This document shows positions 4,824 through 12,367 of a DNA stretch of 40,279 nt, one piece after another. The DNA comes from a virus. The notes under the pieces were generated by a model, which saw nothing but the letters and a program-made list of their open reading frames with translations, had not been told where the DNA came from and did no database searches. The stretch is taken from positions 1 through 40,279 of the IMG/VR virus record IMGVR_UViG_3300007725_000009; one strand, given 5' to 3'. Made by a program: the position numbers and the translations under genes. Each line of letters starts with the position of its first letter. The stretch's first letter is position 1.

Positions 4824-4842
4824 GGGAGCCCCAGTGGCTCCC
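4824..4842 (+). terminator. intrinsic terminator after gene 32
   Basis: GGGAGCC (4824-4830) pairs with GGCTCCC (4836-4842) around a five-base loop and is followed by ATTTATCC, a weak T tract. It lies between the gene 32 stop and the endolysin ribosome-binding site. It also argues against an endolysin start at GTG 4834, which falls inside the loop. Confidence 0.7.
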
Positions 4843-4860
4843 ATTTATCCGGAGGATATG

Positions 4861-5382
4861 ATGGAATCAAATTTTAACAAATGCCTCGATATCATACTAA
4901 AGCACGAAGGGGGATATGTCAACCATCCATCCGATCCTGGCGGTATGACTAATCTTGGCGTGACTAAACGTGTATATGAAGAGTGGGTCGGTCATGACGT
5001 TGATGAATCAGTAATGCGTTCATTGACTATTGATGATGTAGCACCAATCTATAAACGTAATTATTGGGATAAGGTGAAAGGTGATGAACTTCCTTCTGGG
5101 CTTGATCTTTGCGTGTTTGACTTTGGGGTCAACGCTGGCACTGGGCGTGCGGCTAAGTACCTCCAGTCAATTATCGGGGCAACAGCTGATGGCGCTATCG
5201 GTCCTAGGACTATTAAGCTTTTGGGCGATTATCTTGATAAGCATACTGTAGAAGATCTTGTTGAACATTACCAAGCGGATCGTCAGTCTTATTATGAACG
5301 CCTAAAACATTTTGAAACCTTCGGTCGTGGTTGGACTCGTCGGGTTAACGAAACAACTGAACTAGCATTAGGAATGATATGA
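4861..5382 (+). CDS. endolysin, GH108-type muramidase
   Basis: The product is about 173 residues. The N-terminal signature E-G-G-Y-V-N-x-P-x-D-P-G-G (residues 16-28) with Glu16 as catalytic acid is diagnostic of glycoside hydrolase family 108, and TNLGVTKRVY follows as expected. The C-terminal half (ADGAIGPRTI) matches the usual peptidoglycan-binding part. It cleaves the murein glycan backbone for host lysis; no holin lies beside it, though the EF-hand membrane protein at 8001-8267 is a candidate. I chose ATG 4861 because GGAGG at 4851-4855 is five bases upstream; ATG 4858 is too close. There is no signal peptide, so a holin is needed. The stop overlaps the next start (ATGA). Confidence 0.85.
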   Translation: MESNFNKCLDIILKHEGGYVNHPSDPGGMTNLGVTKRVYEEWVGHDVDESVMRSLTIDDVAPIYKRNYWDKVKGDELPSGLDLCVFDFGVNAGTGRAAKYLQSIIGATADGAIGPRTIKLLGDYLDKHTVEDLVEHYQADRQSYYERLKHFETFGRGWTRRVNETTELALGMI

Positions 5383-5942
5383 GGCACACTCTAGACTTTA
5401 TAATGGCAATTGAAAGGGCTCTTCCCGCTCGTGTGTGCGAATCCCTCATCAAAAAGTTTGAGAAATATTCAGAAGACCAAATCGATAGGGATGAGTCGTA
5501 TTACAAGTTCAAAGAGATAAACCTCCATGAACACGGTGGGTTTGAGGAAGAAATTGAAGTCATCAAGAATAGCGCTGAACATGTATTAAAACATTACAAG
5601 CACGAACTTGGTATAAAGTATTTTCCTAAGGAATTCGACCTAGAACAATTTCGTATGAAGAGGTACGACCCCAACGATGAAGACCAGTTTGACTGGCACG
5701 TTGACGTTGGCGACCGCGCTTCAGCAAAAAGGTTTATGGTGTGTTTGTTCTACTTGAACGATGTTGAGGAAGGCGGTGAAACCGCATTTGATTGGGACAA
5801 TGATGAAGAGAGGGCGGTTGTATCACTTGCCCGTCAAGGCAACGTTGTATTATTCCCGCCATTGTGGATGTACCCCCACAAAGGAACCAAACCTAAGTCT
5901 GGTCCGAAGTACATCCTTTCAACTTACGCACACTACTTATAA
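5379..5942 (+). CDS. 2-oxoglutarate/Fe(II)-dependent oxygenase (prolyl 4-hydroxylase type)
   Basis: The 187-residue product carries the complete iron-binding facial triad: His107 and Asp109 in DWHVDVG, and His167 in YPHKGT, with Lys177 (PKYIL) as the probable 2-oxoglutarate anchor. GGETAF and LFYLNDVEEGG are typical of the prolyl-4-hydroxylase-like subfamily common in marine T4-like phages. Its substrate is unknown; tail or baseplate proteins, or a host protein, are possible. It overlaps the endolysin stop by four bases and ends tail-to-tail with the minus-strand gene, overlapping it by six bases with no visible terminator between them. Confidence 0.85.
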   Translation: MRHTLDFIMAIERALPARVCESLIKKFEKYSEDQIDRDESYYKFKEINLHEHGGFEEEIEVIKNSAEHVLKHYKHELGIKYFPKEFDLEQFRMKRYDPNDEDQFDWHVDVGDRASAKRFMVCLFYLNDVEEGGETAFDWDNDEERAVVSLARQGNVVLFPPLWMYPHKGTKPKSGPKYILSTYAHYL

Positions 5943-8000
5943 TATGCCATTAGCAAACGTTGATTGTTCTCTGAAGTAATCATCGTTATCGTTTGATGGC
6001 GTAGTGGTCATCTGTATGGTGGGGGCGCTAACTGAAGAGTTAGAGATTGTGTCCCCACCTCTATTCATTAGTATTGCCCCGAGAATTCCCGTACCACTAA
6101 GGTCATTATTCTCTGCTTGGTTATCTCTCAAAGCACTATTCCCGCCAAGGTACTCCATCATAAGATCGTCAGCAGATTTGCCAATCATAGGCGATTCTAT
6201 CTTAGGAATGCCCATTCTATTTTCAGCTTCAATAGCAGCTTTGTAATCAGCTTGTGCCGCATCATTTGCTGCCGCAATCTTAGCTCTTACAGAATCTTCT
6301 TCTAAGCTATTTCTTGCCATAGATTGCTCAATCGCAGCCATCTTGTCAGCAATTGAAGAAGCATTAGGATCTTCATATGTAAATCCGTCAGCCCCCATCT
6401 TATAGCCTTTAGCTTCCATTTCAGCTTCGAATGCTTTGAGTTCAGCAGACTCTTGTTCAGCTTTCTGACGTAGTCTGTTTTGTTCATCAATGGCTTTTTG
6501 ATGTTTTTCTTGCTCTAGCCTAGCAGCTTCATTTTCAATAGCAATTTGCTCTAGTCGAGTAGCCTCAGCGGAATTCAAACGATCCTGTTCGGCAGCAGCT
6601 TTAGCCGCTTCGCGTTCAGCTTTCTTAGCGATACGAGTCTGTTCAGCGGCAGCGCGACGAGCTTCCTCAGCCTCAATCTCTTCATCAGTTAAGCCACCCA
6701 ACCAAGAAGGAGCTTTCTTACGGACATAGAAAATGACGTCATCGGCTAGTTGAGAAAAGTAATCAATAACATCGCTCATCATATCACTAATAGCACCAAC
6801 TGGGTCCATAGCATCAAGTTCAGCTGCCAATTTATCAAACCCAAACATATCGAGGAAGTACACACTGACTTCTTTGAGTAGGTTTATTGGCCAACCTAGA
6901 AAATATCCAGTAAACTTACTAAACAGTGATTTTAACGCCTCGCCGATAGAACCCGTTTCTTTGAATGTATCGTAAGCATCTTGAACCGATTTTACCAAAG
7001 CTCCGAGGGTCAATGCTAAAAGTGCGCCAATAGCTACGAATGGCGCCATAGCTACGATGGCTGGCGCAATAGTAGTTGTTACTATACCCATCAGCCCTGA
7101 GATCAAGCTAGTAATCCCTGCCAATAGCGATGCGCTTAAAGTGGTTATCCCAGCCCAAATAGCAGGTATAATCGTCCTGAATAGCGTAGCAGCCATTGAT
7201 TTGAATCCACCCCAAAGCGCTATAACGCCTGTGTACAGGGTAGTCGCTAGTGAAGCGACCGCACCCCAAAGTGCTGGCAAGATACGCATAAAGAAAAACT
7301 TGCCGATACTAAAAATCAATGACCCAAACTGGAATACCCTAAAACCAAGAGAACCGATGAATTTACCAACGTTGAGCAATAATGTTGAAACAAACGCAAA
7401 CTTAGATACCACCCACAACGCAGAAAGTGAAGTCAAAATTACATTATCTTTCATGAATTGCATTGCGGGCTCTAGATCGCCAGCCAACGCTTGGTTGATG
7501 CTATCGAAAGCGCCAGTAAAGAAATCTCTAATTTCCACGATAGCATCGATAACTGTCATTGGATCAAAGAAAAGTGTCAATAGACCCAAACCTAAAGCAG
7601 CCTTTGCGCCTTGGTCCAAAAGATTGGATATTCCTTTCTCTATGTTTTGAACGCCTTTGACTAATCCATCAAACCCTTTAGATATACCTTCGAAGAACTT
7701 GTTTTGCTCTCGCTTTTCTTCTTTGCTAGCAGGGTCGTTGTTTTCATTTTTAGGTTTCTCGAACTTATCGCCCAAATCTACGGTCATACCTGAGATAGCG
7801 GAAACTATCTCAGTTGTCTGATCGATGATCATTGTATTCAGCATCGAGAAGCTGTTACTCAAGACATTGGTTTGAGCCAATACTGCTTGCTTAACAGTCT
7901 TCAGCGAGTTGTCTTTACTGTTCCTGGTATAGCTGCCTTCTTTTCGAACACGTTCGATAAGTTCAGCCATTCCTGGCATATTAGTTGGATTGTTAGCCAT
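5937..8000 (-). CDS. probable tail tape-measure protein
   Basis: I infer tape measure from architecture and position rather than a named motif. The 687-residue product has a coiled N-terminal part, a long hydrophobic helical section (about residues 130-350, with several membrane-like segments such as LISGLMGIVTTTIAPAIVAM), and a charged Ala/Glu/Lys/Arg coiled coil (about 438-530). The low-complexity end is Asn/Ser/Thr-rich. Tape measures have this mix, and its length is near T4 gp29 (590 aa), consistent with a contractile tail of ordinary length. It is the last gene of the minus-strand operon, after a tail-tube-fold protein and the frameshifted gp26, which is the usual place. A membrane-associated structural protein is the alternative. 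Confidence 0.55.
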   Translation of the reverse strand: MANNPTNMPGMAELIERVRKEGSYTRNSKDNSLKTVKQAVLAQTNVLSNSFSMLNTMIIDQTTEIVSAISGMTVDLGDKFEKPKNENNDPASKEEKREQNKFFEGISKGFDGLVKGVQNIEKGISNLLDQGAKAALGLGLLTLFFDPMTVIDAIVEIRDFFTGAFDSINQALAGDLEPAMQFMKDNVILTSLSALWVVSKFAFVSTLLLNVGKFIGSLGFRVFQFGSLIFSIGKFFFMRILPALWGAVASLATTLYTGVIALWGGFKSMAATLFRTIIPAIWAGITTLSASLLAGITSLISGLMGIVTTTIAPAIVAMAPFVAIGALLALTLGALVKSVQDAYDTFKETGSIGEALKSLFSKFTGYFLGWPINLLKEVSVYFLDMFGFDKLAAELDAMDPVGAISDMMSDVIDYFSQLADDVIFYVRKKAPSWLGGLTDEEIEAEEARRAAAEQTRIAKKAEREAAKAAAEQDRLNSAEATRLEQIAIENEAARLEQEKHQKAIDEQNRLRQKAEQESAELKAFEAEMEAKGYKMGADGFTYEDPNASSIADKMAAIEQSMARNSLEEDSVRAKIAAANDAAQADYKAAIEAENRMGIPKIESPMIGKSADDLMMEYLGGNSALRDNQAENNDLSGTGILGAILMNRGGDTISNSSVSAPTIQMTTTPSNDNDDYFREQSTFANGIL

Positions 8001-8267
8001 TTACTTCTTTCCCATCCAAGCAGACACACCAAAGAATGCCGCTACAATACCACCCATAGTGATATAAAACATTGAAAATATATCGGAAAGCGCGTCAACC
8101 CTTTCTACAGGAACGATCGGCGACATAAGAATTCCGGTGAACACGACCATAGCTATCACGGATCCACTTGCCATCCGTCTCTTAGCCACAACCTTTCTTT
8201 CGTACATTTTAAATTCTTGTTCAGTCACTACACCATCACCATCTAAGTCAGGGTTAAAGTTTTCCAC
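8001..8267 (-). CDS. small membrane protein with N-terminal EF-hand
   Basis: The 88-residue product starts at GTG 8267, chosen because AGG lies upstream and the reading begins directly with a calcium loop. The loop is DLDGDGVVTEQEF, with Asp7, Asp9, Asp11, Gly12, Val14 and Glu18 at canonical EF-hand positions. Two transmembrane segments follow: about residues 33-52 (GSVIAMVVFTGILM) and 66-84 (FYITMGGIVAAFFGVSAW), ending in MGKK. A basic linker (KVVAKRRM) joins them. Size and two-helix topology recall class II holins, but a tail-tip or injection role fits equally well because it sits between the gp26 frameshift product and the tape-measure-like gene. The stop is directly followed by the next ATG (TAAATG). 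Confidence 0.6.
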   Translation of the reverse strand: MENFNPDLDGDGVVTEQEFKMYERKVVAKRRMASGSVIAMVVFTGILMSPIVPVERVDALSDIFSMFYITMGGIVAAFFGVSAWMGKK

Positions 8268-8272
8268 TTCGC

Positions 8273-8467
8273 TTACCTTTTTTGTTGCTGTTTAATTCGC
8301 TCGTTTTCTTCTTTTATATGTTCAGTCAACAGAGCGACATAAATCTGCCTTTCCCACGGTATCATTCCTTCAATTTCATCAAGCGAATACTTGTGGAATT
8401 GCATCATTGCGAAGTTTGTTTTATAGTAGTTTTCTATGGACTCGTGGGCAAGGCCAATTAGAAAAAA
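8273..8467 (-). CDS. -1 frameshift extension of gp26 (62 extra residues)
   Basis: In the -1 frame relative to gp26 an ORF is open from the slippery site to TAA at 8273-8275. It adds 62 residues after the slip, including IENYYKTNFAMMQFHKYSL and MIPWERQIYVALL. A stop lies just 5' of the slippery site in this frame. No ATG, GTG or TTG occurs until ATG-ATG 19 codons in, which lacks a ribosome-binding site and would cut off the ENYYKTNF part. I recall similar 'NYY...M..H.YSL.ELE.MIPWER.IYV.LL' sequences as small gp51-like proteins in marine T4-like phages. The likely product is a gp26-extension fusion of about 296 residues. Confidence 0.6.
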   Translation of the reverse strand, partial: FFLIGLAHESIENYYKTNFAMMQFHKYSLDEIEGMIPWERQIYVALLTEHIKEENERIKQQQKR

Positions 8468-9162
8468 TTATTCAGCCCCTCTACCGAAATGTCATTATCA
8501 TGTCCACACTTCTCGCACTTAAAGTCGTGCTTAATAGCAACAGTCGGTAGATCTTGGAACATCTCTACAATCTGTTGGAAGCTTCTGGTCGATAGGGACT
8601 CAACGAATTCTACTAGTTCTTTTTGCGTTTGTTCTTCGGCAGGGTAAACATCGTCCGCATCATAGATAGATTCAATACAATTGGCAATAACCAGAATTGA
8701 TCCTTCTGCTGATTCAGGGTTTACCTTACCTAAAGCATCCGCAATGTTGAATCGTGGGTAGCGTAAAACGATACCAACTTCATCAGTAACTTTAATGCGC
8801 ATAGACTTTTCTAGATCGCCTTTAATCTGCGCATCTTCTAGGTTGATAACTGCGTCATTCATGTGACCACATTCAGAACAACCTAATTTAATCTCTGAAG
8901 TTTCGCCGACCGACTTAGCTCGAATCTGTAGGAATACGTATTCAAAGTCGAACATAGTCAAATCGTTCGGATTAACTTTATTGAAAGTACAAGCTGAAAT
9001 CAGGTCTCGAGTTGCCCGAATCATTTGTTTCTGATCGTCAGACTCTCGAGCCAATAGTAGAACTTTCTGCTCCTTAACTTCAAATGGTCGAAACTCAATT
9101 TCTTCTTTCGTTGAAGGAATAGTTAATACATATCTTGGGGCATTTAACTTAGGTAAAGCCAT
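8458..9162 (-). CDS. 26: baseplate hub/tail assembly protein, gp26-like
   Basis: The 234-residue product matches the T4 gp26 family (PF12322, T4 base plate protein): the opening LPKLNAPRYVLTIPS, an EIEFRPFEVKEQKVLL segment, and a four-cysteine zinc site formed by two distant CxxC pairs (Cys95/Cys98 in GCSECGH and Cys216/Cys219 in KCEKCGH). In T4, gp26 is assigned to the central baseplate hub. Here its end carries a slippery site leading to a -1 extension, and a tape-measure-like gene follows. Together these suggest it works as a tail assembly chaperone pair, short and long forms, as lambda G and GT do. It starts 21 bases after the tube-fold gene. Confidence 0.75.
   Translation of the reverse strand: MALPKLNAPRYVLTIPSTKEEIEFRPFEVKEQKVLLLARESDDQKQMIRATRDLISACTFNKVNPNDLTMFDFEYVFLQIRAKSVGETSEIKLGCSECGHMNDAVINLEDAQIKGDLEKSMRIKVTDEVGIVLRYPRFNIADALGKVNPESAEGSILVIANCIESIYDADDVYPAEEQTQKELVEFVESLSTRSFQQIVEMFQDLPTVAIKHDFKCEKCGHDNDISVEGLNNFF
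8461..8467 (-). promoter_or_regulatory. slippery heptamer T-TTT-TTC for -1 frameshift
   Basis: Read on the minus strand, the last sense codons of gp26 are TTT TTC preceded by T, giving U UUU UUC, a canonical X XXY YYZ slip site, directly followed by the TAA stop. Slipping back one base bypasses the stop and enters the downstream open frame. I see no strong stimulatory hairpin within the next 30 bases. Confidence 0.65.
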
Positions 9163-9183: not shown

Positions 9184-9726
9184 TCACTTCCCTTCGTATA
9201 GGGAAACATATTTGTCATATTTGAAAGTAACAGTCAATCTAGCAAATTCGTTTTCTGACGCATTACTTAGTTCTGTATCTGAAATTGTGGCAGGGTATGC
9301 GTTTTCCAACCTCATACCGTATTTATAGTTCCCTTCTGCGTCTAGCATATCGATGTAGACGTCGGATACATATTCTTCTTTGTAGTTTAAGCGGTATGTC
9401 TCAGGGTCGCCAATGGCACGTTGCCAAGCATCAAATACCTTTCGGGCGTATGAGTCGTTGGTGACTAAAAAGGTAGCACTAACGTCACCGTCTATAAACG
9501 TATATGGTTGAGCTTTTTGGAAACCGCCTGCCTCGTACTCAAACGTCGAATAGTTCCTGCCTGGGAGCGTAACCGATTCGCATAAAAACCTTAGATCCCT
9601 AGTGTTTTCACCACCAAGGTAAGAGTTGGCCAATGGCTTGAGCGCAAAACTCAATTGAAACCTATTTGACCGAGCGACACCATCGCGTCTGTTTATGACT
9701 GTTATAAGGTTATCTATTGAAGCCAT
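9184..9726 (-). CDS. tail-tube-fold protein, gp19 family (possibly gp54-like tube initiator)
   Basis: The 180-residue product has the T4 gp19 tail-tube pattern: R-S-N-R-F-Q-L near the start, the strand C-E-S-V-T-L-P-G-R, then G-D-V-S-A-T-F with D-P-E-T-Y, and a Y-P-A-T-I-S-D-T-E-L-S end with a final hydrophobic beta strand. Because it sits in a baseplate/hub operon, it may be the baseplate tube initiator (gp54 role) rather than the main tube protein; the major tube gene may lie outside the window. Its ATG overlaps the stop of the preceding gene (TAATG). A TATAAATA on the same strand within this gene (9320-9327) may help express gp26. Confidence 0.7.
   Translation of the reverse strand: MASIDNLITVINRRDGVARSNRFQLSFALKPLANSYLGGENTRDLRFLCESVTLPGRNYSTFEYEAGGFQKAQPYTFIDGDVSATFLVTNDSYARKVFDAWQRAIGDPETYRLNYKEEYVSDVYIDMLDAEGNYKYGMRLENAYPATISDTELSNASENEFARLTVTFKYDKYVSLYEGK
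9320..9327 (-). promoter_or_regulatory. internal T4-type late promoter motif (minus strand)
   Basis: TATAAATA is read on the minus strand inside the tube-fold gene, about 160 bases before the gp26 start. It may be a secondary late promoter or a chance codon match. Confidence 0.3.
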
Positions 9727-11599: not shown

Positions 11600-12367
11600 A
11601 TGTCTTTTTTCAATAAATTTCCAACTACAGAGTACGACATCTTTGGGCGCAACCTGAAGAGCAAGATTCCGGACATATTCAAACAAGTCAGGATTGTTGA
11701 TAAAAGATTTGATTCTATAACGCCATATCGTTTGTTAGAAATAGCGGATCAGCGCCCAGACCAACTCTCGTATGAACTTTACGGCACCACCGATTTTCAT
11801 TGGACTTTCTTTATAATTAACAACCACTTGAAATATGGTCACACAGATTGGCCAATGACGGATAAACAATTTGAAGAGTATGTTAGCGAAAAGTATCAAG
11901 GGTATGCTATAACAGGACATCGCACTGTCGAAGATGATATGAACCTAAACTCAGTACAAGGTTTCTTTGCCATAGGTTCTACTTTAAGTTATGATAATGC
12001 TGGTACGATAACGCCAAATGCTATTGTTACTGCGCGCAACGCAAAAGTGAATCAGATAGCGTTTAAATACACCGGAAATCACGTATTCACGCAAACGGAA
12101 AACATTTATGGTCCGAACACAACTTTCTTCGGTAATCCTGAAGGGACTGGGTTCACGATCCGCCCTTACGCTGAATCGGTTCACCACTATGAAGACGAAG
12201 ATGGTAATTTAATCAGCAACTTTGAAAACTACCGTTTGCCTCTGCGAGAAATTTCTTATTATGATTATGAAAAAAGAATGAATGATGAAAGAAGATCTAT
12301 TCGGGTTCTGAAGCGAGAGTACATAGAAGACTTCTCTATTGAATTCAGGAAGGCTGTAAATGCTTGA
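11600..12367 (+). CDS. 53: baseplate wedge protein, gp53-like
   Basis: The 255-residue product matches the Phage_gp53 family: start F-F-N-K-F-P-x-T-x-Y-D, the central RPDQLSYELYGTTDFHWTFF-type stretch where the LysM-like core lies, and the end YDYEKRMNDERRSIRVLK. T4 gp53 (196 aa) clamps the gp6-gp7-gp8 wedges around the hub during baseplate assembly. About 60 extra residues fall in the middle (residues 110-190). The stop overlaps the next gene by eight bases. Confidence 0.8.
   Translation: MSFFNKFPTTEYDIFGRNLKSKIPDIFKQVRIVDKRFDSITPYRLLEIADQRPDQLSYELYGTTDFHWTFFIINNHLKYGHTDWPMTDKQFEEYVSEKYQGYAITGHRTVEDDMNLNSVQGFFAIGSTLSYDNAGTITPNAIVTARNAKVNQIAFKYTGNHVFTQTENIYGPNTTFFGNPEGTGFTIRPYAESVHHYEDEDGNLISNFENYRLPLREISYYDYEKRMNDERRSIRVLKREYIEDFSIEFRKAVNA

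Follow-up and report, generated by a model that had tools for sequence, protein, structure and literature searches.

Organization of the locus

The window, by which we mean the whole stretch of DNA analysed, is a virus record of 40,279 bases (possibly a fragment) that carries T4-like tail, baseplate, gp59, and gp32 genes. It also encodes a gp26-like gene whose end overlaps a second open frame, offset by −1; the whole arrangement sits on the minus strand. The following features are relevant:

5937..8000, minus strand: tape-measure-like gene, 687 aa (weak matches to three PHROG tape measure families: 6.9e-6, 1.6e-5, and 0.0011)
8001..8267, minus strand: 88-aa ORF, starting with GTG and separating the chaperone frames from the tape-measure-like gene (phrog_27150, 1.4e-13)
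8273..8467, minus strand: −1 frame, 64 codons (8467..8276) plus stop (8275..8273); putative gp51-type C-terminal domain (C-domain, TAC-C) of a long form (phrog_634, 1.5e-28; codon periodicity)
8458..8460, minus strand: gp26-frame (0-frame) TAA stop, immediately after the heptamer
8461..8467, minus strand: slippery heptamer T TTT TTC, read 8467 to 8461
8468..8470, minus strand: −1-frame TAA stop, immediately before the heptamer
8476..8481, minus strand: Shine-Dalgarno-like GAGGGG, 8 nt before the heptamer; tentative candidate stimulator (computed duplex −8.7 kcal/mol; GAG favoured over GAA at its codon)
8458..9162, minus strand: gp26-like gene, putative short form (TAC-N), 234 aa, ending in LNNFF (PF12322, 2.8e-63; phrog_150, 5.7e-68)
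9184..9726, minus strand: tail tube protein gene, just upstream of gp26 (phrog_45, 1.3e-34)

The gp26-like protein is a member of PF12322, scoring 214 bits against a curated cut-off of 24.5 with residues 9-234 covered. The chaperone frames occupy the position expected of a tail chaperone pair, between the tail tube gene and the (weakly matched) tape-measure-like ORF, with one 88-aa ORF intervening. An earlier reading, made from the sequence only, had placed a tape-measure-like gene after gp26; such a gene does lie downstream (8000..5937), but the 88-aa ORF (8267..8001) keeps the two from being adjacent.

The 88-aa ORF encodes an EF-hand-like loop and hydrophobic segments; its match to EF-hand_1 (E 0.0082) falls below that family's cut-off. 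Among the 106 representative relatives described below, the next ORF after the −1 frame is complete in 43, with lengths of 60-249 aa. A strongly hydrophobic stretch is present in 42 of these 43, and an EF-hand-like loop in 20. A small membrane-type, calcium-binding-like protein is an odd occupant of a tail module. Two other observations concern the plus strand of the window. A 2OG-Fe(II) oxygenase family protein (5379-5942; PF13640, 1.1e-10) adjoins a GH108 lysozyme gene (4834-5382), and a very hydrophobic 56-aa ORF (5081-5251) lies in another frame within the lysozyme gene; the latter could be a nested holin-like gene or could be due to chance.

The slip site

The gp26 3' end reads AAT AAT TTT TTC TAA, and the −1 frame across the same site reads TTT TTT CTA ATT. 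As the sequence-only reading had stated, U UUU UUC (8467..8461) stands directly before the gp26 stop (TAA, 8460..8458), and the −1 frame is closed just upstream by the TAA at 8470..8468. In the window phage, a shift to the −1 frame must therefore occur on the heptamer itself. The open frame, originally given as 62 codons, comprises 64 when counted from the heptamer and 62 after the two Phe codons. A slippery heptamer in the short-form frame, close to its stop codon, is one of the features by which a frameshifted chaperone pair is recognized.

The heptamer is rare in the window: T TTT TT[TCA] occurs in phase at 2 of 11,441 codon positions in 23 ORFs, one of which is the gp26 site. The other, also T TTT TTC, is at the third codon of a baseplate wedge gene (11600-12367, plus strand) and is probably a chance occurrence.

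Conservation among viral contigs and named phages

Viral contigs were scanned twice, first with the −1 product as query (best 80 of 582 confirmed hits kept) and then with the C-domain alignment minus its first seven residues, and hence without Phe-Phe (best 80 of 597 kept). Because each scan retained the best 80, close relatives are favoured. The pooled 160 loci, with some contigs present in both scans, represent 133 distinct regions and 106 representatives at less than 90% identity. One locus from the first scan (L003) shows 100% identity across the query and so comes from the window's own phage or a very near one.

The sequence-only reading had called for a comparison of gp26 ends across T4-like phages. 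Near its end, the gp26 frame carries six T residues in an identical phase in 80/80 loci among the best of 582 hits and in 80/80 among the best of 597, or 160/160 of these best matches, as well as in 19 of 25 named phages. The seventh base of the heptamer varies across the 106 representatives: C in 54, T in 39, A in 12, and G in one (L156, T TTT TTG). The gp26 stop follows closely, with two sense codons from the heptamer to the stop in 30/106, three in 71/106, and four to eleven in 5/106. If both frames keep Phe-Phe, however, this dual coding would by itself require six T residues; conservation of the run and the coding evidence given below are thus partly linked.

The named phages were drawn from 27 annotated regions picked by hand. 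Of these, 25 were scored, while Aeromonas phage 50AhydR13PP and Klebsiella phage phiKp_23 were used for gp51 only. Carriers of the site are eight cyanophages; Pelagibacter phage Mosig; marine virus AG-345-E15; Vibrio phages ValKK3, D484, and EniLVp02; and the phages Stenotrophomonas YB07, Pseudomonas pf16, Sinorhizobium phiN3, Rhizobium RHph_I1_18, Nitratidesulfovibrio SRB7757, and Pseudoalteromonas XG4. The runs in pf16 and phiN3 contain seven T residues. The site is absent from six of the 25: T4, Konradin, Vibrio K353, and the three Ackermannviridae tested (Bue1, BX-1, and cp18).

Four of the gp26 relatives without six T residues nevertheless retain a C-domain-like −1 frame: Vibrio BX-1, Erwinia Bue1, Klebsiella cp18, and Vibrio K353 (L104, L091, L105, and L088, respectively). 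At the site, BX-1 reads GTTTTTC, which resembles the GTTTTT motif reported for Pseudomonas phage Adele (PMC12846349); Bue1 and cp18 read ATTTTCATTTAA; and K353 has no such run. In BX-1 and K353 the frames overlap by TAATG.

Coding signal and start codons in the −1 frame

The −1 product matches phrog_634, annotated as 'baseplate hub assembly catalyst', at 1.5e-28, which bears out its original description as a gp51-type protein. It also matches the phrog_150 profile at positions 231-282, exactly where gp26 ends. In 35 representatives from the first scan, variation between the slip site and the first ATG is 0.217, 0.122, and 0.504 at −1-frame codon positions 1, 2, and 3, respectively. After the first ATG the values are nearly the same: 0.237, 0.081, and 0.476. 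This pattern shows that the stretch from the slip site to the first ATG is already coding in the −1 frame.

The sequence-only reading held that the −1 frame has no usable start codon. In the window, that is correct in part: an ATG at 8407 and an adjoining ATG do exist (codons 21-22), but both are downstream of conserved coding sequence. Of the 106 representatives, 93 have their first ATG no earlier than codon 20; it lies at codons 10-19 in two, at codons 0-9 in ten, and upstream in one. If GTG and TTG also count as starts, the earliest start falls at or beyond codon 20 in 62/106. In 25/106, a −1 stop precedes the T run by at most one codon. A start codon for the second frame in relatives had been named beforehand as evidence that would count against frameshifting, and here no start common to all 106 representatives was found, but an ATG is present at codons 4-6, near the gp26 stop, in 11 of the 19 named carriers (ACG-2014f, P-SSM2, S-PM2, S-SKS1, P-SSM4, ValKK3, D484, phiN3, EniLVp02, YB07, and XG4). 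Given that ATG, these 11 phages may have a second, start-codon route to the C-domain.

Could the −1 frame instead be a small gene of its own, with translation beginning at an internal codon such as the ATG at 8407 (44 aa) or a rare non-AUG codon? The ATGs at codons 21-22 of the window frame and those at codons 4-6 in the 11 named carriers would suit such a gene, as would the short gp51 annotated in many public records (for example, the 44-aa gp51 in Pelagibacter phage Mosig). However, the 20 codons preceding the first ATG are conserved as protein; the position of the first ATG is scattered, and none is shared; the entire 59-aa −1 frame of SRB7757 is without ATG, GTG, or TTG; and the gp51 proteins of the T4 group are fused exactly at the junction (see below). 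An independent start is very unlikely in view of the coding periodicity before the first ATG, the late first ATGs, and the upstream −1 stops, and we regard a separate gene as highly improbable. An overlapping, coding −1 frame that lacks its own start is, by contrast, a second feature by which a frameshifted chaperone pair is recognized.

RNA polymerase slippage on the T run would generate mRNAs one base longer or shorter, and thereby the same fused protein. A run of at least six T residues in all loci is compatible with this, but the constant X XXY YYZ phase is not required by transcript slippage (dual coding could also fix the phase), and six bases are short for efficient slippage by the polymerase. 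We judge this explanation to be no more credible than a separate gene. Finally, a sequencing error or mis-assembly, a pseudogene, or a random open frame, suggested by nothing except the shortness of the frame, is ruled out by the same arrangement in 160/160 loci (133 distinct regions) and 19/25 named phages, together with the family match to phrog_634.

Candidate stimulators

A Shine-Dalgarno-like element may, tentatively, stimulate frameshifting. In relatives, the mean duplex energy is −6.8 kcal/mol, compared with −5.2 for synonymous re-draws; on average, a fraction of 0.32 of the re-draws does as well or better. GAG is used over GAA at the element's codon in 15/20 cases, versus 191/764, in one set of relatives. 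Likewise, GAG accounts for 32 of 55 GAR codons at position −14, compared with 555 of 2385 elsewhere in gp26 (p 4.5e-8, which is not a true probability because the sequences are related). Nearby codons are also raised in GAG (15/30 at −20; 15/36 at −26), and for this reason the stimulator role is put forward as tentative.

Downstream RNA structure was considered as a stimulator and rejected. For the interval from +12 to +72 the mean z is −0.63, with 7/35 representatives below −2, against −0.05 and −0.38 for two downstream controls, and no consensus downstream fold was found among the 35. The hairpin predicted in the window (z −1.84) pairs the slip site itself.

Modelled folds

The AlphaFold2 model of gp26 has a pLDDT of 89.3. 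VIA-align matched its first ~90 residues to 3klu (YqbN; Z 7.5), the HK97 tail assembly chaperone 2ob9 (Z 7.3), and 3fgx (Z 7.2); the next rows have Z 5.1 and then 2.9. YqbN is related to prophage tail chaperones. The 2ob9 alignment covers 83 residues with an rmsd of 3.9, its Z is below 8, and Foldseek alone gives a weak match (E 1.3). From a viral library, Foldseek returned gp26 relatives, the best of which bears the name baseplate hub assembly chaperone. The modelled amino-terminal fold of gp26 appears to resemble that of the HK97 chaperone. For the C-domain, the model is helical and has a pLDDT of 72. Solved structures searched by sequence yielded no match for this locus.

Relation to T4 genes 26 and 51

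The window gp26 is homologous to T4 gp26 over its length. In T4, however, genes 26 and 51 are separate, on opposite strands, and without the heptamer; T4 gp26 retains Phe-Phe as TTC TTT.

The gp51 proteins of T4, Konradin, Aeromonas, and Klebsiella phages are 247-251 aa long, and the PF12322 domain is present in 4/4 tested. A profile of the −1 product was built from 50 C-domain rows, two of which (pf16 and phiN3) are fragments of 3-4 aa as a result of their seven-T runs. It matches the C-termini of 4/4 gp51 proteins, from the junction Phe on (E 6.5e-11 to 4.7e-4; 7 targets), and does not match the three gp26 proteins tested. Each gp51 is thus a PF12322, gp26-like domain joined in frame to a C-domain at the slip junction, so that T4 gp51 has the layout of a frameshift product. 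The 40,279-base record, itself possibly a fragment, contains one PF12322 match.

This comparison bears on gp51 in other phages. According to Sullivan et al. (2010; PMC3037559), the gp51 of cyanophages and marine vibriophages lacks the first ~200 residues of T4 gp51 and is treated as a reduced gene. The region concerned is the same C-terminal region as that described here. At the present locus, the missing part would instead be supplied by gp26, and joining through a frameshift would account for the ~200 residues.

A model for chaperone synthesis

We conclude that a programmed −1 frameshift very probably makes a short and a long tail assembly chaperone in this marine T4-like phage. The proposal that gp26 and its long form are the chaperone pair, already advanced in the sequence-only reading, draws support from the conserved slip site, the coding −1 frame, the lack of a shared start, the gp51 fusion, and, more tentatively, the modelled fold. 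Most ribosomes would stop at the end of gene 26, producing the short form. Some, in which tRNA-Phe occupies both sites on U UUU UUC and the stop codon comes next, would slip back one base and read the −1 frame; their product would be a long form extended at its C-terminus by 64 residues, probably helical. By analogy with lambda gpG and gpGT, both forms would act jointly on the tape measure protein, binding it while the tail assembles. Slippage and its efficiency, the chaperone function, and tape measure protein binding are what we infer from the sequence comparisons.

The likeness to lambda is that a short and a frameshifted long product are encoded before the tape measure gene. The lambda heptamer is G GGA AAG; here it is U UUU UUC, the gp26 stop is directly behind it, and the 88-aa ORF precedes the tape-measure-like gene. 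Xu, Hendrix and Duda are said to have described, in 2004, a conserved tail frameshift that includes lambda gpG/gpGT. For T4-like phages, Vladimirov and colleagues reportedly concluded in 2022 that frameshifting is kept in several groups, whereas T4 uses separate genes 26 and 51.

A link between the T4 and lambda assembly schemes had been presented as novel in the sequence-only reading, but it was already proposed by Vladimirov, Gautam, and Davidson (2022), who identified the T4-like tail chaperone genes. Two later papers refer to that work. PRFect (PMC10885494) cites it on the point that some T4-like phages do not frameshift but have two TAC genes, one short and one long and fused, and the Adele paper (PMC12846349) attributes to it the poly-T −1 signals of T4-like TAC-N genes. 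The Adele TAC locus, as described there, is similar to ours in having a −1 frameshift at a poly-T motif at the TAC-N end; it differs in belonging to the Vandenendeviridae and in its invariant GTTTTT motif, compared with T TTT TTC here. Our literature search found no paper on a gp26 frameshift beyond Vladimirov et al. (2022) and works citing it. The comparative evidence presented here is fresh; the general claim of frameshifted chaperones in T4-like phages is not new.

A wider scenario, which we consider possible and yet rather more likely to fail than to hold in all its parts, combines regulation with ancestry. GGAGGG located 8-10 nt upstream of U UUU UUC, with a stop codon directly or nearly directly behind the heptamer, would tune frameshifting and be kept across marine T4-like phages. 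Frameshifting would be ancestral; T4 gene 51 would be a copy of gene 26 plus the −1 tail, fused at the slip junction; and the heptamer in T4 gene 26 would then have decayed.

Implications

A frameshifted chaperone pair explains the stub-like annotation of gp51 in cyanophages relative to T4. In many public records the second frame is either missing or entered as a tiny gene whose start is arbitrary. Moreover, the locus offers a clear substrate for testing how phages switch between recoding and gene duplication as strategies of assembly.
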